Shown piece after piece: positions 6,907 through 28,174 of a stretch of 39,813 nt of DNA; within the stretch, counting starts at the first letter, position 1; every line of letters begins with the position of its first letter. Both the position numbers and the translations under genes were made by a program. The notes under the pieces are model-generated. The model had not been told where the DNA came from. It worked only from the letters and a program-made list of their open reading frames with translations, and ran no database searches. The DNA comes from a virus, in IMG/VR virus record IMGVR_UViG_3300036945_000164, positions 1 through 39,813 of that record. One strand, written 5' to 3'.

Positions 6907-7103
6907 TACTCGCAGTCTCTCCAGTCCATTGGTGTTGGTGCGGTTGTAATGGTACCGCACTCCTTGCACTTCTGAGCAAGGTCATACCATGATACTTCCC
7001 TTGACTCTTGGTCCCACATTACAGTTATCTCGAACATAAGGCAACCACATATGCAAGCAAATGTAGGTGTACCTCTTAAGTCATTCGTCTGCTTCGTACT
7101 CAT
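6906..7103 (-). CDS. Small zinc-ribbon-like protein
   Basis: A 65-residue protein with two Cys groups: FACICGC (about residues 15-21) and QKCKEC (about 44-49). These could bind one zinc. Between them lies a strand-rich stretch (MFEITVMWDQ). It overlaps the upstream sigma-like gene by ATGA and the downstream gene by TAATG. No specific family is recognised. Nucleic-acid binding or RNA polymerase contact would fit the context but is inference. Confidence 0.6.
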   Translation of the reverse strand: MSTKQTNDLRGTPTFACICGCLMFEITVMWDQESREVSWYDLAQKCKECGTITTAPTPMDWRDCE

Positions 7104-7786
7104 GAATGGTCAACCATTCCAGATAGTTCACTATCATGCTCGTCTCCGCTCTCGCTTTGTGACTCTGATTCAATAGTGTCTGGTTCATTGTATGGTCTCC
7201 ATCCGCCTAAGTTTTTAATTAATGAATTCATAGCACGCTGTACTTTCATACGCGCACCATCTGGTGTGCTTTCCATATCCTTGGCTAGTAGTGACCAGTC
7301 AGGTGAATCAATACTGAATCGTAGTCTTAATATGTTTTGCTTTGCGTCGGATAGTTTTTCAAATGCTTTAGAAATATCGCTGCGTAAAGAGAGCCAGTTG
7401 TTGCCATCCGATACGTTGCCGCTTCCGAACTTAGCATTGAGGTCCTGGATACTAACGGGGATTGAATATGTCCCAGCAATGATTGATGGTAAGAACGCTT
7501 CAACAACAGATACATCATAGTAATATAGGTCTGATGAATCGTATCCTGACTTCTTTGCTTTCTCTCTTTCGCAATACTTAAGAGCCGCATTACGTAGGGA
7601 TTTAGCAATTAATTTATCCTTATCTTTAGACTCTAATTCGGACCATTCTTTATACTTACGTGGATGTCCAACAAACCACACCCATAATTCTTGTGCTATA
7701 TCATCACGCTCAAGCATGTTGTACTTGCGAGTATACTCGGATGATAATGTCTGCACTAAATCATTGTACTCTTCAATGTAATTCAT
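7100..7786 (-). CDS. Sigma-70-family-like transcription factor
   Basis: A 228-residue protein with the layout of a small sigma factor. Residues about 8-75 resemble region 2 (YNDLVQTLSSEY, then RDDIAQELWVWFVGH). Residues about 138-193 resemble region 4 (SKAFEKLSDAKQNILRLRF, then LLAKDMESTPDGARMKVQRA), a helix-turn-helix that would read the -35 element. A charged Glu/Ser tail follows. Neighbours are zinc ribbons and WhiB. It may direct RNA polymerase to phage late promoters. Region 2.3/2.4 aromatic residues are not clearly recognisable, so a degenerate sigma-like regulator is possible. Confidence 0.7.
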   Translation of the reverse strand: MNYIEEYNDLVQTLSSEYTRKYNMLERDDIAQELWVWFVGHPRKYKEWSELESKDKDKLIAKSLRNAALKYCEREKAKKSGYDSSDLYYYDVSVVEAFLPSIIAGTYSIPVSIQDLNAKFGSGNVSDGNNWLSLRSDISKAFEKLSDAKQNILRLRFSIDSPDWSLLAKDMESTPDGARMKVQRAMNSLIKNLGGWRPYNEPDTIESESQSESGDEHDSELSGMVDHS

Positions 7787-17087: not shown

Positions 17088-17620
17088 CGGACGTTCAATT
17101 CTAGAGGTTGGTCACACGCTTGGCAGTCGTTGAATGCCTTGGGTGTGAGCAGATTGCACCAGTGGCATTGAACCTCTCGTGCTTTCTGGCGTTGGTCATC
17201 TAGTTCCCAATATTCCTCATAAACTCCGCCGTCCATTAGTTGTGCGATTGGTGGCAAGAACTCGCTACGGGTTACTGGTTCGTCTGTGTCTATGAACTTC
17301 ACAGCGAGTTCTATTAGGAACATCGATTCCTCTCTCCATTTTTCTATCATGACTGCTCTCCTTTTCGGTGGACTTACATATGTAACTGATGCGACCCACT
17401 CGCTTGCCGAGGGAGCATCAGATGTATTTATAGACAGACAGTGACCTTCACCGAGTCTGTCATCTTCGTGTAGATTCCAAGCATTGTCATCTGCTTTAGC
17501 CTCTGCGTCATCTACGCAGGACTGGCATTGGCTGGGAGGGAAACCCTCCGCAGTATCTCTTGCTATCACCATGCATTCGTAGCAGGTGTTTTGGACGCTG
17601 ATGCCTAGTGATTCGTTCAT
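17084..17620 (-). CDS. Multi-CxxC putative zinc-finger protein
   Basis: 178 residues from the ATG at 17620 (MNESLGISVQNTCYEC). This start overlaps the stop of the 50-residue gene by ATGA; an in-frame extension upstream is unlikely to be used. Four CxxC pairs are visible: CYEC, CQSC, CHWC and CQAC, two near each end, with a middle part holding a helical REESMFLIELAVKF. It could bind nucleic acid or host proteins through zinc-stabilised ends. As one of the first early genes it may act in host takeover, but no family is recognised. Confidence 0.6.
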   Translation of the reverse strand: MNESLGISVQNTCYECMVIARDTAEGFPPSQCQSCVDDAEAKADDNAWNLHEDDRLGEGHCLSINTSDAPSASEWVASVTYVSPPKRRAVMIEKWREESMFLIELAVKFIDTDEPVTRSEFLPPIAQLMDGGVYEEYWELDDQRQKAREVQCHWCNLLTPKAFNDCQACDQPLELNVR

Positions 17621-17769
17621 TTGAGTAGCATTTCTGCGTCTAAGCCACATAGACAGCACATATCCTGAATATATGGGTCGGCGTAGTGCCACGTGTGCTC
17701 GGGGCATGGAACCGCTGATATAGCGTCCATATCGAACTTACATTCTGAACAGAACCTTATACCGTTCAT
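17617..17769 (-). CDS. Small Cys-rich protein, first gene of the early arm
   Basis: 50 residues with FCSECKFDMD (CxxC), a PCPEHTWHY segment and DMCCLCGLD, a likely zinc-binding small protein. AGAAAGG precedes the ATG at 17769, and its stop overlaps the next start (ATGA). It is the first convincing gene leftward of the structured divergent region. Role unknown; regulation of early transcription or host interaction is a guess from position. Confidence 0.65.
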   Translation of the reverse strand: MNGIRFCSECKFDMDAISAVPCPEHTWHYADPYIQDMCCLCGLDAEMLLK

Positions 17770-17815
17770 GATTACCTTTCTGTGTTAGAGAGATTCTAAC
17801 TACATCAATCAGGAC

Positions 17816-17883
17816 AGCATAGGTCGGAGGGAACTGTCAAGCCATGTAGTTCAATGGCTTGATAGGGAAGGAGACCTACTGCT
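17816..17883. other. Two-tier long hairpin
   Basis: AGCATAGGTC (17816-17825) pairs with GACCTACTGCT (17873-17883) with a single bulged C. Inside it TCAAGCCAT (17837-17845) pairs perfectly with ATGGCTTGA (17854-17862) around an 8-nt loop. Single-stranded purine-rich segments separate the two stems. The structure is symmetric enough to form from either strand. Confidence 0.65.
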
Positions 17884-17980
17884 ATAGCCATAGGCAACCG
17901 CAGTATATTGGTTTAATTATACTGGGGCACAGTTCCGTTCTGTGCCTAGGCAGATAGAACTCCTACAGAAGCGCAGACTA

Positions 17981-18092
17981 TCTGTACAGTAGTGAGTCTT
18001 TAGTCTGTAACCGTAACTGTTTGACCCTACAGTTATTAATCGGACAGTTAAGTATATGGTGTATCTCTACCTAAAATATTTCTGTACAGTAG
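17981..18092. repeat. Direct repeat TCTGTACAGTAG with palindromic core, 100 nt apart
   Basis: TCTGTACAGTAG occurs at 17981-17992 and 18081-18092, start to start exactly 100 nt. The core CTGTACAG is a perfect palindrome. A related palindrome CAGTACTG lies at 18097-18104. Paired palindromes in a divergent control region suggest binding sites for a dimeric protein, such as an operator or replication initiator. Confidence 0.6.
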
Positions 18093-18147
18093 GACGCAGT
18101 ACTGTCTGACCTGCAGTTTTATAAATAGTTCTATAGAAAGTGTTCGT

Positions 18148-18177
18148 TTGACCTATTTGAACGGATTAATATATATA
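18148..18177 (+). promoter_or_regulatory. Rightward promoter candidate for the late arm
   Basis: TTGACC (18148-18153) and TATATA (18172-18177) are separated by 18 nt (17 to the alternative ATATAT). Both are close to sigma-70 consensus. It lies about 110 nt before the terminase start and would give a leader of roughly 100 nt. A use by host sigma rather than the phage sigma-like factor is assumed. Confidence 0.5.
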
Positions 18178-18287
18178 GAGAACAAAATAGTTCGTAAGTC
18201 TTTTTAGAGCCTTACTCACAACTGTTACAATAGACTGTACTAATCTGCTACAAGGCAGGTGAATACTGTCCAATTCTAGGGGGCTAG

Positions 18288-20174
18288 ATGACGTTCGAAA
18301 AGGGGGCAACTAACCCCAAGACGGCTAAGACCAATGAAGCCAAGGAGCAGGTACTCTCGCTTGTGGCTGAGGGTATGTCCCTCTCAAAGGCTATGGAGAA
18401 GGTGGGCTCGAAGCCCGATACCGCCCGCATCTGGATATACAGAGATGCAGACTTTGCCCGTAAGTTGGAGCAAGCCAAAGAGGATGCCAAGAGCAACTCT
18501 ATTAAGTCCCTTGGTATCCCCAAGGAAGATATTACCTTTGCCCAGTTCTCTGAGATGTTCCTAGGCTCCCGAGTCTTCCCACATCACCAGGACTGGATTG
18601 ACCTTATTGAGGGACGCGAACCTTCGTGGCTTCACCCCTCTATGACCTATGACCCAGGCGACATCACCCGACTATTGGTGAACGTACCCCCTGAGCATGC
18701 TAAGTCCACCGTTGTCACGGTGAACTACTCGACCTACCGTATCGCCATCAACTCTAACGTCCGCATCATCGTGGTCTCTAAGACGTTGAACAAAGCACGT
18801 GAGTTTGTATACTCAATTAAGAATAGGTTGTCCCACCCTCGTTACGCCAAGATGCAGAATACGTTCGGTCCTGAAGGCGGCTGGAAGGGTGACGCAGATA
18901 CCTGGCGTGTAGATACCGTCTACCTTGGTGGCGATGCGCGTGATTCATCTGAGAAGGACCCGACTATCCAAGCCCTAGGTATGGGTGGACAGATTTACGG
19001 TGCTCGAGCAGATTTGATTATCCTTGACGACTGTATTACTACGGCTAACGCCCATGAGTATGAGAAGCAGATTAACTGGCTTCAGAAGGAAGTTATCACC
19101 CGTCTGGGTAAGAACGGTAAGTTGCTTATCGTGGGTACGCGAATTGCCCCTACAGATTTCTATAAAGAGTTAAGAGACCCTAAGCACTGGTCTAATGGTA
19201 AGAGCCCATTTACTTATATGGGTATGCCTGCAGTACTTGAGTATAAAGAGAAGGTCGAAGACTGGGTGACTCTTTGGGGTCGTTCTGATATTCCTTGGGA
19301 CGGGGATGAAGATACTCCAGATGCAGATGGTCTATATCCTAAGTGGAATGGCGAAGCCCTTAATAAGCGACGCGGTGAAGTTACCGCCTCAACATGGGCG
19401 CTTGTCTATCAGCAAGAGGATGTAACCGAAGATGCAATCTTCTCAGCACCTTTGGTGCAGGGATGCGTTAATGGTATGCGCAAGCGCGGTCCACTTGACC
19501 CTGAGAAACTTGGCAACCCTAGCCGTGTAAACGGTTATACGATTATTGGCTTTGACCCTGCTATGACGGGTAACTCTGCGTTTGTGGTTATTACTTATAA
19601 CTCAGCAGATAGCCGTATATATGTGCTTGACTGTATAAACATGTCTGAGCCTACACCTGCCAAGATTAGAAACACAATTGAAGAGTTGGTCACTAAGTAC
19701 CGACCTAACGAATTGCGTGTGGAGATTAACGCTCATCAGAAGGGCTATGCCTTAGATGATGATTTACGTAATTGGCTTGCCCAGTATGGTTGTGATTTGA
19801 AACCACACTTTACTGGCAAGAACAAATGGGACACCAACTTGGGCGTAGCATCTATGTCTACGTTCTTTGGAACCCTGCGTGAAGGTAAGTTCCAAGACAA
19901 TAACTCAATTGAGTTCCCATCTACTGAAGGTTCTGAGGGCATGAAAGCCTTGCTTCAGCAGTTGATGACTTGGAAACCAAACACTAAGGGTAAGACTGAC
20001 TGTGTGATGGCGCTTTGGTTTGCTGTATTGCGAGCCAAGGAGTTAATGCAGGCGGCATCGTTTACTAGCCGCTATAAGGAAAACCGTTGGGCAACTAAAG
20101 CGCAACTATCAAAACGACAATCAATCAACCTCGACGCTGCCTACCAAGAGCAGTGGCAAGAAACATTTGGATAG
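18288..20174 (+). CDS. terL: Large terminase subunit
   Basis: A 628-residue DNA-packaging motor protein. The ATPase part has a Walker A variant (NVPPEHAKST, about 132-141) and Walker B with the catalytic acids (LIILDD, 243-248). The RNase H-like nuclease starts at IIGFDPAM (Asp423) and has a late KTDCVMALW acid. Residues 15-55 carry an extra helix-turn-helix-like part (QVLSLVAEGMSLSKAMEKVG), as seen in small terminases, and no separate small-terminase gene is found. The first third is GC-richer than the rest. It cuts and pumps DNA through the portal. Confidence 0.93.
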   Translation: MTFEKGATNPKTAKTNEAKEQVLSLVAEGMSLSKAMEKVGSKPDTARIWIYRDADFARKLEQAKEDAKSNSIKSLGIPKEDITFAQFSEMFLGSRVFPHHQDWIDLIEGREPSWLHPSMTYDPGDITRLLVNVPPEHAKSTVVTVNYSTYRIAINSNVRIIVVSKTLNKAREFVYSIKNRLSHPRYAKMQNTFGPEGGWKGDADTWRVDTVYLGGDARDSSEKDPTIQALGMGGQIYGARADLIILDDCITTANAHEYEKQINWLQKEVITRLGKNGKLLIVGTRIAPTDFYKELRDPKHWSNGKSPFTYMGMPAVLEYKEKVEDWVTLWGRSDIPWDGDEDTPDADGLYPKWNGEALNKRRGEVTASTWALVYQQEDVTEDAIFSAPLVQGCVNGMRKRGPLDPEKLGNPSRVNGYTIIGFDPAMTGNSAFVVITYNSADSRIYVLDCINMSEPTPAKIRNTIEELVTKYRPNELRVEINAHQKGYALDDDLRNWLAQYGCDLKPHFTGKNKWDTNLGVASMSTFFGTLREGKFQDNNSIEFPSTEGSEGMKALLQQLMTWKPNTKGKTDCVMALWFAVLRAKELMQAASFTSRYKENRWATKAQLSKRQSINLDAAYQEQWQETFG

Positions 20175-22677: not shown

Positions 22678-23099
22678 TGGCTGAAACAAGAGGCGGATAC
22701 CGCAAGCCAATGAACCCAGCACCCACATCAGGTCCTGGTGCGCTATCACAGCGCACAGACGGTGGACCAGCACAAGGTGCTAAGTATATTTCTGGACTAC
22801 CTTATGGTGAAGGTCGCTCAACATATGACCAGCAAACTGCTGCTCCTATGGCTGCTGGTGCACCAACACCTAAGCCACCAGTAATGGAATTACCTACACC
22901 TTTGATGGCTCCAACAAGTCGTCCAGATGAGCCAATTACTTCTGGCATTAATATGGGTGCAGGACCAGGTTCTGAAGTTATGATGGACCGACCATCTAAT
23001 AACAAGACACTTGCTGATACTTTACGTGAACTTATTCGCTTTGACCCTAGTGGAGACACAGAACTTATTTATAGAACTCTTGTTGACGAAGGATACTAA
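22677..23099 (+). CDS. Pro/Gly-rich hypothetical structural-module protein
   Basis: 140 residues. The first 110 are Pro/Gly/Ala/Thr-rich and likely disordered (PAPTSGPGALSQ, AAPMAAGAPTPKPP). The last 30 contain a probable helix (NKTLADTLRELIRF) and end TLVDEGY. It is linked by TAATG overlaps to both neighbours. Such proteins lie between portal and large internal proteins. No function can be assigned. Confidence 0.6.
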   Translation: MAETRGGYRKPMNPAPTSGPGALSQRTDGGPAQGAKYISGLPYGEGRSTYDQQTAAPMAAGAPTPKPPVMELPTPLMAPTSRPDEPITSGINMGAGPGSEVMMDRPSNNKTLADTLRELIRFDPSGDTELIYRTLVDEGY

Positions 23100-26000
23100 T
23101 GGCAACAAAAGTTAATTACATTGTAAGCAAACTTAGTCCTAATATTTATTCAGCAGCACAACAGGCTAATCTTCCAGCAGGTCAAGTCTCACAACTTGAG
23201 CAACTTGGCTGGACTGTAGACAAGAACCGTAGTCTTATGAAACTTCCTTCTGAGGAAGGACGTAAGCAGTTTTCTTCTCTTGCGCCAGAAATTCAAGAAA
23301 AGATTAAGTTTTTGTACCCAGATGCTGACTATGCAAAAGACCCAGAAACATTTGGCGACAAAGTTATAGGTGCTATTGGCTTTACAGCCAAGACTGCAGC
23401 ATCTCCTTTGCTGGGTCTATTCAAAGTAATGGGTGCATATAACCGTGTAATTAATACACCATACCTTGTTGGACGACAGGTAGCACAAGGAAAAGATTTA
23501 TTTAGTGTCAAGACTCTTAAAGATGCTTGGGATGGCAAGAACATTTACGACCAAGGCGCTCTTAAAGAAGCAATGTCTGCGTTTGGTGAAACAGATGTAA
23601 AGGTTGCACAAGGTCTTATTGCTGGCTTAAAGCCAGGACAGATTGTTGAGCAGTACGGTGAAGTAGACCAGGCTTTGCTTAAGTCACTTCAGAAGGCTTA
23701 CAACGACCCAGATTCATTCAAGCAAATACTCGACGGTGTTAAGTACGCACAGGTTTCACCTGGTCGTGACATTGCTCGTATGTTTGACAGCAAGCCGTTA
23801 AAGGCTAACTTGCATCAAGATTACATTGATGGCAAAACAAAAAACATTTCTGGCGCTATCGACTTTATGTACCAGTTGGCTATTGACCCGCTTACTTATG
23901 TAAGTGGTGGTCTATCCAAGTTACCTGTTCTTGGTTCTAAGTTTATGTCACGTGGTGACAGACTTACTCAGACAATTGCAGAGCGCGGTACTGCTGGAGT
24001 GCGTGATATTTTCCGCACAGAACCAGATGTAGTTAAACTATGGGATGAAGGTATTGGCAAGGCTGTTAAGAAGATTGCAGATGCTCCAACTACAGCAGAA
24101 AAAACTGTCGCACGTCGCGAACTAGGAAATAACTTTCCTGGTTACAACAACGATGAAGCAATTGACATGCTTGTTCGTAATGAAATTTACGATGCAAAGG
24201 CAGCGGTTAACTACTTTTCTGAAGTTGAGAACGTACCGCTACTGCTATCTGGCAAGGTAGATGGAGTTCAGTACTTCCGTAATGGTATTGCTACTGCTCG
24301 TAACCAGCGCCGACTAGAGTCTGGCGTATCACGTTATGTAGATTCTTTCTTTAATCCAGCAAAGTCAACTGATGATATTGAAAAGCAGGGGAAGGATGCA
24401 TGGGAAATCTTTACCAAAGTAGGTAAGGACGAGAATGCAATTGTTCCTGAAGAGATTACAGAAATAAAGAAGTTCTGGAATCAAATGTCTAAGCGAGAAA
24501 AAATCGCTCAGAAGTTTGGTCGCACAACACAGGGTCGCTATATTATGATTGGCGAAGACTCTATGAAGACTGCGGATGTTGCCCGTGATACATTCCGCCA
24601 GATTGTTCCTAGAGATGTTGCAGATTTCCTTACTTATAAGTTTGTTCGTGCAGATGCTAACGACCAGATTGTTATTTTGCGTAACACTTACTTTGCAATT
24701 ATGCAGAAGTATGGTCTAGACGGACACCCAAAGGGCATGGAACTTATTGAGAAGACTCTCAAGAGTAAGTTTGGTGATAAAGAAGGTCTAGCAGTTGTAT
24801 CTAAACTAGAAGTAAACCCTAAGTTTGCTGATGAAGTTGAGATGACAGGGCTTAAGCGCCATGATTCTGGACTAGAATATGAAACTTCTGGCATCATTCA
24901 CCCATTCCAAGAAGCAAAAGGTGTTGCATCTCTAGACTTTATGGAGATTGCAGAGACTGTTGCTAACATTAAGAGCAAGAAGAACTTGCTTATGGCTATG
25001 GGTGGCGCTACACAGTCACACACTGCAGGTGAATTCGTAAATGCTTGGTCATTGCTGACACTTTTCCCACGTCTGGGTATTCGAAGTGGTATTGATGAAG
25101 GAATTATGTTCCTACTTACAGCACCAGGTGCTGATATATTCCGTTACGCTACACGTCAAGGACATAAACTAGGCAAGATTGCTACAGCACACACTGGAAG
25201 CAAGCATGCTGAAGGTTTACGCTCTAGTCTTGCTGGTGTAACTGGTACTCGCGCATCTGATGCGCTATCAATTGAGCGTCGTTTACAGATTCGTAGTGAA
25301 CTTGCTGATAGTAAGGGCATTAGTGAAGACCTTCTTAGTAAGATTGACGTTGCCACTGCAAATGCCAAGGAAGCAACACGTTTATTCCATGGTGCAGACT
25401 CAGAAGAGGCACAGTATCTCGTAGAAGGACTTGCTCATGGAGCCCATATCCTTAGTTCAACAGCACGTTCTATGGCTGGTTCAGCATCACTAACAGGTCG
25501 TATCGCTGATGATGTTGTTGAGAATCTAATCGATATGAACAACTTTGATTTGATGCTCAAGGACCTTGATGTTGTATCTGGTAAAACAGATAACGTGCTT
25601 AGCACGTATGACCTAGATAGAGCATCTATCCTTAATGGTCGTGGTGTAGCAGTAGTTCACTTTGAGAACTTTATTAAGCGTTTCTATGGAAACCGTAAGC
25701 AGTTAAAGGGTACAAAGGGTGACAGAACATTTGACCCAGCCCGTAACTTCCTAGAGAACAATGCACTAGAGACAACTGCTGACTTCCGTCGCGCTAAAGA
25801 GCAAGCATTATCAGCAATTGGTATTGAGCGTAATGCTGATTTGGGGCGTGCTATTGGTGATGATGCTTTAGATTCAGTATCTAAGAACGTAGCATGGGTA
25901 ATCAAGGATGTAGACGCTGTAAATGAATTCATTAAGATGTCTTCTCGCTCAAGCGAACTTATGCAGCGTGGTGTTCCACGTGCAGAGATTGTTGCTGACC

Positions 26001-28174
26001 AAGTAGACCGTGTTCTTCTTGACCTATATCAGACATTCCACGGTTCTTCAAATAACTTTAACACTGGTCTATATAACCTTATTAAGTCACGCCAAAAAGA
26101 CTTAACGGATTTAGAAGTAGAAAAACTTATAACTGTTCCAGATAAGTTGCGTCGAGCAACTAAGTCTCTTACATTTGATGAGTTTGAAAAGGCTACTAAG
26201 GGCTATCAGCCAACAGGTCGCATGTACTCTCAGTTAAACATTGAGGGTCTTACTGATATGGAGAATGTCTATAAGCGTCTAGGTAATGATGCCTTTTCAT
26301 TTATGGACCGTCAGGTTACAGAGATGTTCCGTCAGCCAGCAGTTATGATTGCGTATACACGTATTCGTAAGAACCTATCTAAACTACAGGCAGAAGAAGA
26401 AGCCAAAGTTCTTGCACAGTTTATGAAGAACAACGGTGGCACTGGTCGTCGCGGTATTGATGCACTTAAAGAAGATATTAAAGAACAGGTTACTCGTAAG
26501 TATGTCGAGATTGCTATCAATCAGGCTACAGATACAGTTCTAAAGTACGCAGATAACCCACTTATTAGAACTAACTTTGCTCTATCTGCTCGTAACGTAG
26601 GTCGCTTCTATCGTGCAACAGAAGACTTCTGGCGTAGAACATACCGTCTACAGGATGTAGCACCACGTGTTCTATACCGTATGCGTCTAGCGCATCTTGG
26701 TCTTAACTCTGCTGGCATGATTTATTCAGATGCTAAGGGCGACCCATATGTAATGATGCCTATGGATGACATTATCTTTAAGACAGTTGATGGAACTATC
26801 CGTAACCTTACTGGTGAAGGTGCGTTCCAACAGCCAATCTTTAATGACTTCACATTGAAGTTGAAACTTGCTAACCCATCGTTCTCACCAGATGCTGGTT
26901 TGCCTACACTATCAGGTCCAATTGCTGCACTTGGCGTGCTTGGAATGAAGTCTGTTCTAGGTAGAACTGGTGCAACTGGACAGAAGGCTGCAGAAGAATT
27001 AGATAACCTTGCTCTTGGAAACATTGGCGAAGGCATGGATATTGTTCGTGCTCTTGTTCCATCTTCATTGCAGAAGGTATGGAAGATTGTAGATGCAAAC
27101 GAGAAGGATAAGCAGGAATCAACTGCTGCTATGCAGGCTATTGCATACAACGCATCTCAAGGACGTATGCTTGGACCTAATGCAACACAGGAAGAGAAGT
27201 ACGAATACCTAAAGAATATCCGTATTTCTGCTCACAACATTATTGCTATGAAGTCAGCACTTGGATTATTTGCACCAATTGCTCCATCTATGCAGGAAAG
27301 CATAGGAGTTCCAGACTATCTTAAGGAAGTCGGAATTGTTACACTACGTGCAGAGTTCTTTGACCTAGTAGATGCAGTCACAAAGAAGTACGGTGGAGAT
27401 GTACAAGACCCGTATGAATTAGCACTTGCTACATTTATGGGTAAGTACCCAGGCAAGTTGGTATATACAATTGCCCGTGATGAGAAGACAACTAAGGTAC
27501 AGATTCAAAAGACTAAGGCACTTAAGGATTGGGCTCTTGGCAACAAGGCTACAATTGACAAGTATGGTCAGGCTGCATTTATTCTTGCTCCACGTAGTGG
27601 TGAGTTTGATGCTGCTACATATGCTTGGCTAGAGGCTGCAGACCTATTGCAGGATAAGACGGTTGAGAAGTACTTTGTTGACGTAATGGTAGGTCAAGAT
27701 AAGCAGGCTTACTACAACATTGCACGTGACGAGAAGCGTCTGCTTGGTCAGACTATAAGCAGTACGGCACGTAAGGCTATTATTGAAGAGGCTACAGCAA
27801 AGCGTAAGATGCTTAAGGCATCTAACCCACTGCTTGAGGCTTCACTTACTGCTGGTGGTAACGAGATTGCTACTGAAGAAGAGATGCTCGACAGTCTTGA
27901 AGAGATGCTAGCAAATACCAGTATTGAAGTTAAATCTGGAACACGTTCTAAGTTGCTGATTCTTACAAACCAAATGCGTTCATTTGTCAATATGTCAAAG
28001 GACCCTGCTGCTCGTAATGCAGAAAACTTCACACAACTAAAGCGTGACCGTAAGTTGGCTATCGAACAGATGATTGCTGAACTTGCAACACAAGACCTAA
28101 GTGTTAAGGAAGCAAACCGCGCTATATTTAGTGCAATTCTTGATTATTACTCACGCGATTCATACACATCATAA
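23099..28174 (+). CDS. Very large putative internal virion / DNA-ejection protein
   Basis: 1691 residues, the largest gene in the window. It begins MATKVNYIVSKLSPNIY. A Gly/Ala-rich segment (about 80-130: GAIGFTAKTAASPLLGLFKV) is followed by long helical stretches through most of the chain. No peptidase, lysozyme or ATPase motif is obvious. No signal peptide is present. With the 500- and 409-residue genes behind it, it has the place and size of podovirus ejection proteins, which leave the capsid with the DNA. A polyvalent or tape-measure-like protein is the alternative. Confidence 0.5.
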   Translation: MATKVNYIVSKLSPNIYSAAQQANLPAGQVSQLEQLGWTVDKNRSLMKLPSEEGRKQFSSLAPEIQEKIKFLYPDADYAKDPETFGDKVIGAIGFTAKTAASPLLGLFKVMGAYNRVINTPYLVGRQVAQGKDLFSVKTLKDAWDGKNIYDQGALKEAMSAFGETDVKVAQGLIAGLKPGQIVEQYGEVDQALLKSLQKAYNDPDSFKQILDGVKYAQVSPGRDIARMFDSKPLKANLHQDYIDGKTKNISGAIDFMYQLAIDPLTYVSGGLSKLPVLGSKFMSRGDRLTQTIAERGTAGVRDIFRTEPDVVKLWDEGIGKAVKKIADAPTTAEKTVARRELGNNFPGYNNDEAIDMLVRNEIYDAKAAVNYFSEVENVPLLLSGKVDGVQYFRNGIATARNQRRLESGVSRYVDSFFNPAKSTDDIEKQGKDAWEIFTKVGKDENAIVPEEITEIKKFWNQMSKREKIAQKFGRTTQGRYIMIGEDSMKTADVARDTFRQIVPRDVADFLTYKFVRADANDQIVILRNTYFAIMQKYGLDGHPKGMELIEKTLKSKFGDKEGLAVVSKLEVNPKFADEVEMTGLKRHDSGLEYETSGIIHPFQEAKGVASLDFMEIAETVANIKSKKNLLMAMGGATQSHTAGEFVNAWSLLTLFPRLGIRSGIDEGIMFLLTAPGADIFRYATRQGHKLGKIATAHTGSKHAEGLRSSLAGVTGTRASDALSIERRLQIRSELADSKGISEDLLSKIDVATANAKEATRLFHGADSEEAQYLVEGLAHGAHILSSTARSMAGSASLTGRIADDVVENLIDMNNFDLMLKDLDVVSGKTDNVLSTYDLDRASILNGRGVAVVHFENFIKRFYGNRKQLKGTKGDRTFDPARNFLENNALETTADFRRAKEQALSAIGIERNADLGRAIGDDALDSVSKNVAWVIKDVDAVNEFIKMSSRSSELMQRGVPRAEIVADQVDRVLLDLYQTFHGSSNNFNTGLYNLIKSRQKDLTDLEVEKLITVPDKLRRATKSLTFDEFEKATKGYQPTGRMYSQLNIEGLTDMENVYKRLGNDAFSFMDRQVTEMFRQPAVMIAYTRIRKNLSKLQAEEEAKVLAQFMKNNGGTGRRGIDALKEDIKEQVTRKYVEIAINQATDTVLKYADNPLIRTNFALSARNVGRFYRATEDFWRRTYRLQDVAPRVLYRMRLAHLGLNSAGMIYSDAKGDPYVMMPMDDIIFKTVDGTIRNLTGEGAFQQPIFNDFTLKLKLANPSFSPDAGLPTLSGPIAALGVLGMKSVLGRTGATGQKAAEELDNLALGNIGEGMDIVRALVPSSLQKVWKIVDANEKDKQESTAAMQAIAYNASQGRMLGPNATQEEKYEYLKNIRISAHNIIAMKSALGLFAPIAPSMQESIGVPDYLKEVGIVTLRAEFFDLVDAVTKKYGGDVQDPYELALATFMGKYPGKLVYTIARDEKTTKVQIQKTKALKDWALGNKATIDKYGQAAFILAPRSGEFDAATYAWLEAADLLQDKTVEKYFVDVMVGQDKQAYYNIARDEKRLLGQTISSTARKAIIEEATAKRKMLKASNPLLEASLTAGGNEIATEEEMLDSLEEMLANTSIEVKSGTRSKLLILTNQMRSFVNMSKDPAARNAENFTQLKRDRKLAIEQMIAELATQDLSVKEANRAIFSAILDYYSRDSYTS

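Follow-up and report, generated by a model that had tools for sequence, protein, structure and literature searches.

The window, by which we mean the whole stretch of DNA that was analysed, is a virus contig of 39,813 bases. Its genes fall into two arms. The leftward early arm encodes a sigma factor, a primase, a helicase and a nuclease. A cysteine-rich open reading frame of 50 amino acids (17619-17768, minus strand), read from the sequence, apparently opens this arm. The rightward arm starts with the gene for the terminase large subunit (TerL) and also contains portal, head and tail-fibre genes. The largest open reading frame in the window (1691 amino acids, 23099-28174, plus strand) has no match in PHROGs or Pfam.

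Between the two arms lies a gap (17769-18287) without a plausible gene, as a sequence-only reading of this DNA had stated. No similar DNA was found in phage and plasmid records. A search for tRNA and tmRNA genes returned none, and the Rfam 15 covariance models give no match, neither in the window at the gathering score nor in the gap at E values up to 1. Intrinsic terminators were not found in the gap. The promoter claimed earlier is not borne out: the gap contains two sigma-70 promoter matches, while 2.8 are expected from shuffled sequences, which is the level of chance.

Hairpins in the gap

The gap is rich in structure. Its plus strand (518 nt) folds with -160.5 kcal/mol (z = -4.97) and beats 100 of 100 dinucleotide shuffles. 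For the 221-nt hairpin array alone the z-score is -3.62 on the plus strand and only -2.0 on the minus strand. In sliding windows of 150 nt the fold signal is maximal at 17750-18049.

All five hairpins of the sequence-only reading are present: a large two-tier hairpin and four smaller ones (Table 1). In the two-tier hairpin a basal stem of 10 bp and an apical stem of 12 bp, the latter with the conserved tip GTCAAG..CTTGAY, are separated by an internal loop of purines (GGAGGGAA opposite GGAAGGA, 8x7). It had been described as more than 60 paired nucleotides with one bulge. There is indeed a single 1-nt bulge, but the pairing is not unbroken, since the 8x7 internal loop had been missed. The repeats reported in the gap are real (direct repeat TCTGTACAGTAG, two copies).

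Table 1. Features of the gap and its right-hand neighbour in window coordinates (DTR, direct terminal repeat).
Feature	Position	Strand	Basis and remarks
Early-arm 5' leader with palindrome GTTAGA-N5-TCTAAC (17784-17800)	17769-17801	-	Sequence; same leader in relatives L002, L004 and L011
68-nt two-tier hairpin	17816-17883	+	Fold; immediately left of predicted DTR
Hairpin CAGTATA..TATACTG	17901-17924	+	Sequence, fold
Hairpin GGGCACAG-TTCCGTT-CTGTGCCT	17925-17947	+	Fold; ends 9 nt before predicted left terminus
Hairpin CAGATAG..CTATCTG	17951-17984	+	Sequence, fold; straddles predicted left terminus
Predicted DTR, 107 ± 1 bp	17957-18063		Homology to BF right boundary; clustered contig ends of relatives
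Hairpin TAACTG..CAGTTA, loop with conserved GACCC motif (18023)	18014-18035	+	Sequence; inside predicted DTR
Palindrome at predicted right terminus, GGTGTATCTCTACC	18058-18071		Sequence, BF alignment; GTAGAGTATCTCTAC in relatives
Palindrome GTTCG-N11-TGAACGG	18142-18164	+	Highly conserved; GTCCG..TGGACGG in some relatives
TATATATAGA box, candidate late-promoter element	18170-18179	+	Putative function; BF phages have TATATATAAT
Variable hairpin H-B, GAAC..GTTC in the window	18180-18193	+	In relatives GGGGCAC..GTGCCC, GGGACTA..TAGTCCC, AGGCAA..TTGCC
Hairpin H-C (GTAAG..CTTAC)	18194-18215	+	Strong compensatory changes
TerL	18288-20174	+	phrog_38, E 6e-70; 43% identity to BF terminases; first gene of rightward arm

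Pairing in relatives

Relatives were collected as 80 IMG/VR contigs by a TerL search, and additional ones by DNA patterns. The cultivated relatives are the Planktophila phages E7 and F5 (OX376640, OX376641; PMC10202952), whose TerL is 61% identical to that of the window. Their kinship therefore points to the likely host group of the window phage. E7 and F5 carry the GACCC motif and the palindrome as in the window, and their records begin at different points. The available parts of the paper on these phages contain no description of their DNA ends.

Across the relatives the elements that follow the GACCC..TTTAA motif keep a constant order: GTATCTCTAC, an AT-rich stretch, GTTCG-N11-TGAACGG, the TATATA box, H-B, H-C and TerL. 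H-C occurs in 41 distinct versions. When 19 versions are aligned, 99.3% of the cells pair; both partners of a pair have changed 26 times, compared with 7.4 times in shuffles, and one-sided changes are absent. Wobble pairs are almost absent from H-C (7 G-U against 11 A-C).

The place of the two-tier hairpin is occupied by a long hairpin of some kind in most relatives. The family of tips seen in the window is found at this place in 41 of 215 distinct loci, and the two-tier form recurs on quite different basal stems in three relatives (L013, L039 and L047). Purine internal loops of this form are on both plus-strand arms. We rejected the idea that the two-tier hairpin is a dispersed mobile element, as the tip family is almost confined to this place. 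The hairpin with the GACCC loop, in the right part of the predicted DTR, has longer covarying versions in relatives, with stem scores that exceed those of shuffles. The first pair of the two-tier tip is G-U in 12 cases and A-C in none, and the GACCC hairpin has 55 G-U against 9 A-C; these counts and the Poisson values are guides, because the sequences are related rather than independent.

Among 44 representatives the mean z-score is -3.2 left of the predicted DTR, -3.0 in the DTR and -2.6 from the palindrome to H-C. The scores are nearly equal on both strands, with a slight bias only in the far-left part (P = 0.011). The hairpin at the left cut is weak when taken alone (z = -1.1). At the place of the hairpin at 17925-17947 many relatives have an inverted repeat of different sequence, and the z-score of the whole segment is weak. 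An RNAalifold consensus structure on an alignment of 70 relatives is poor because the left part cannot be aligned. The hairpins are kept across relatives in form, not in sequence, with compensatory changes. Pairing in relatives was the check by which the sequence-only reading had proposed to judge its own claim, and its broad idea stands that this is a non-coding hub which has a function and keeps its pairing.

The elements at the 3' end of the gap (palindrome, TATATA box, H-B and H-C) probably form the late promoter and leader of the terminase. The palindrome with its TATATA box has no other close copy within the window. The phage sigma factor (phrog_354, 7100-7786, minus strand) could read the TATATA box before TerL. 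A scan of genome contigs for the element gave mostly chance matches. The exception is an Actinomycetota MAG contig (L087:180-1211, SXRC01000104.1), in which the palindrome, a TATATAGAGA box and H-C immediately precede a tyrosine integrase (Pfam PF00589). This copy adjoins argG and has no TerL beside it; we read it as an integrated prophage or satellite.

Predicted terminal repeat and contig ends

The window TerL shares 43% identity over 97-99% of the length with terminases of cluster-BF Streptomyces podoviruses, and the DTRs of BF phages are known. Published BF DTRs measure 253 and 265 bp (PMC9753666, PMC13097060), and in six BF records the first and last 253-276 bases are identical. BF phages (FlowerPower, Manuel, ZooBear; Beephvirinae) share the layout of the window: leftward early genes, DTR, leader, and terminase first. 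In front of TerL they likewise have a palindrome-like GTCC..GGAC stretch, a TATATA box and a hairpin. The two groups differ in host, in GC content and in the length of the DTR, which is 253-276 bp in BF phages and about 107-110 bp in the window phage and its relatives. The comparison concerns TerL and the terminus only.

The right boundaries are homologous (a slash marks the cut). The BF boundary GACCCC..TTGTTAA-N-GAGTG/AGTCCC, or GACCCCAGGGTTGTTAAC-N-GAGTG/AGTCCC, aligns with GACCCCAGACTGTTTAAT-N-GTAGAGTA/TCTC of the freshwater family, so that the predicted cut falls 40 nt after the GACCC motif begins (+40). By homology, the window would be cut on the right at GGTGTA/TCTCTACC (18063/18064) and on the left at GCAGATA/GAACTCC (17956/17957). 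The hairpin array at 17816-17947 falls outside the DTR predicted in this way, on the side of the future right genome end. Our initial reading was a cohesive-end (cos) site at the palindrome GTTCG..TGAAC; we gave it up because the BF boundary and the contig ends both indicated another position.

The +40 position was set from the BF phages before any look at contig ends. Two relatives (L143 and L162) end exactly there (chance P = 1.3e-4). Left ends cluster at a second point. They lie 66-69 nt before the motif (one 4-nt bin) in 7 of 140 cases, with 0.09 expected (P about 1e-11), and 60-80 nt before it in 13 of 140, with 0.49 expected. This point is not at the edge of a conserved block. Short tails, mostly of purines, open five contigs (L023, L407, L412, L202 and L259) and have no counterpart in the homologues spanning the site; with the tails trimmed off, the match to the homologue begins at one and the same base in all five. 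At a right end, L414 carries a CTCTC tail after GTATATGTATC. We take such purine and pyrimidine tails to be the mark of tail-adding library kits on real 3' ends.

The left ends of L412 and L259 and the right end of L414 match by 100% in the compared stretch, which gives a repeat of 110 bp. No single contig was found that carries both ends. New exact ends came from some contigs of the TTGACCCC type, but from none of a further set of about 30 with a TGATTAA-type motif. Thus the relatives have fixed DNA ends at two places about 107-110 bp apart, which correspond to 17957-18063 in the window.

Interpretation of the region

With the termini of the window placed by homology, we consider it likely that the gap serves as concatemer junction and as packaging terminus, in a phage whose genome ends carry short direct terminal repeats. 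A terminal-repeat and concatemer-cleavage region is the best-supported identity, one absent from the list of the sequence-only reading. The DNA of this freshwater actinobacterial phage is most likely cut here into genome-length pieces to be packaged. Terminase would cut the concatemer after GAGTA/TCTC to produce the right end. The left end would come from a cut after GAGATA/G, with the repeat already duplicated.

What the hairpins do is less certain. T7 may offer an analogy: it too has a short DTR at the concatemer junction, and sequence near the right-end side of that DTR can pair with itself; the window phage differs from T7 in having its own sigma factor. T7 also reportedly forms a "hairpin" concatemer end that was proposed to take part in DTR duplication. 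The T7 work of Chung, Nardone and Hinkle (1990) is listed as reference 24 in PMC9503643. In the window phage, the two-tier hairpin and its neighbours may similarly prime the copying of the repeat, by providing a fold-back end or a nick site. A fold-back role requires self-complementarity alone, and hence fits a form that is kept without its sequence. Alternatively, the hairpins may present or mark the cut sites for terminase. The left-end sequence of BF phages is unlike that of the window. BF phages have no consistent excess of hairpins left of the DTR, and hairpins are therefore unnecessary for DTR packaging in general.

Several other explanations have to be weighed. It is possible, though rather unlikely, that the region works as a plus-strand structured RNA, standing alone or as a long leader, in late-gene control or in packaging as phi29 pRNA does. 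The excess of G-U over A-C in the GACCC hairpin and the two-tier tip hints at such an RNA; the better fold of the plus strand in the window, the purine loops on both plus-strand arms and the compensatory changes also fit. However, the G-U counts come from related sequences, and strand bias is lacking among the 44 representatives, apart from the slight far-left exception. H-C has almost no wobble, promoters do not exceed chance and Rfam gives no match. The phi29 packaging RNA is a structured element that lies near packaging genes at the genome end, and the array would resemble it in this. There is no sequence or Rfam match between the two. It seems quite improbable to us that the array encodes a structured plus-strand RNA, kept in shape though not in sequence among freshwater actinobacterial phages, which helps to form genome ends or to package DNA and would be a pRNA-like element outside the phi29 group. 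A replication origin with initiator sites, one of the earlier proposals, is likewise quite unlikely. Divergent arms, an AT-rich stretch and short repeats would suit an origin, and GC skew turns at about 17-18 kb. Yet the switch in gene strand accounts for the skew turn, the gap holds a single two-copy 12-mer instead of an iteron array, and physical ends explain the conserved motifs better. An origin close to a terminus would still be possible. Of the other specific proposals made earlier, control is a plausible role for the 3' elements (the conserved palindrome, the TATATA box and the hairpin before TerL), and a non-coding RNA is possible.

The clustering of contig ends could also reflect assembly breaks at hairpins or in sequence shared between strains, rather than real DNA ends. 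Hairpins and strain mixtures do interrupt assemblies, and three right ends (L198, L343 and L354) lie about 175-179 nt after the GACCC motif, near the TATATA box and H-B and away from the predicted cut, without known reason. We nevertheless hold this to be very unlikely: the +40 position was predicted beforehand, the breakpoints coincide exactly with low-complexity tails that lack homology, and the left point is no edge of a conserved block. It is highly improbable that the gap is only a bidirectional promoter or operator region, with hairpins that serve as regulator sites or stop transcription. The conserved palindrome and TATATA box before TerL and the sigma factor encoded by the phage would agree with this, but the coincident tailed contig ends and the match to the BF DTR would be left unexplained, and intrinsic terminators are absent.

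Candidatus Nanopelagicales, the hosts of this phage group, are among the most abundant freshwater bacteria. In the literature available to us there is no description of the DNA ends of this group. Genome ends fixed from sequence would give a correct linear map and a completeness test for genomes. A long hairpin beside the repeat, whose form is kept amid sequence turnover, makes the question of DTR duplication testable on many natural variants.
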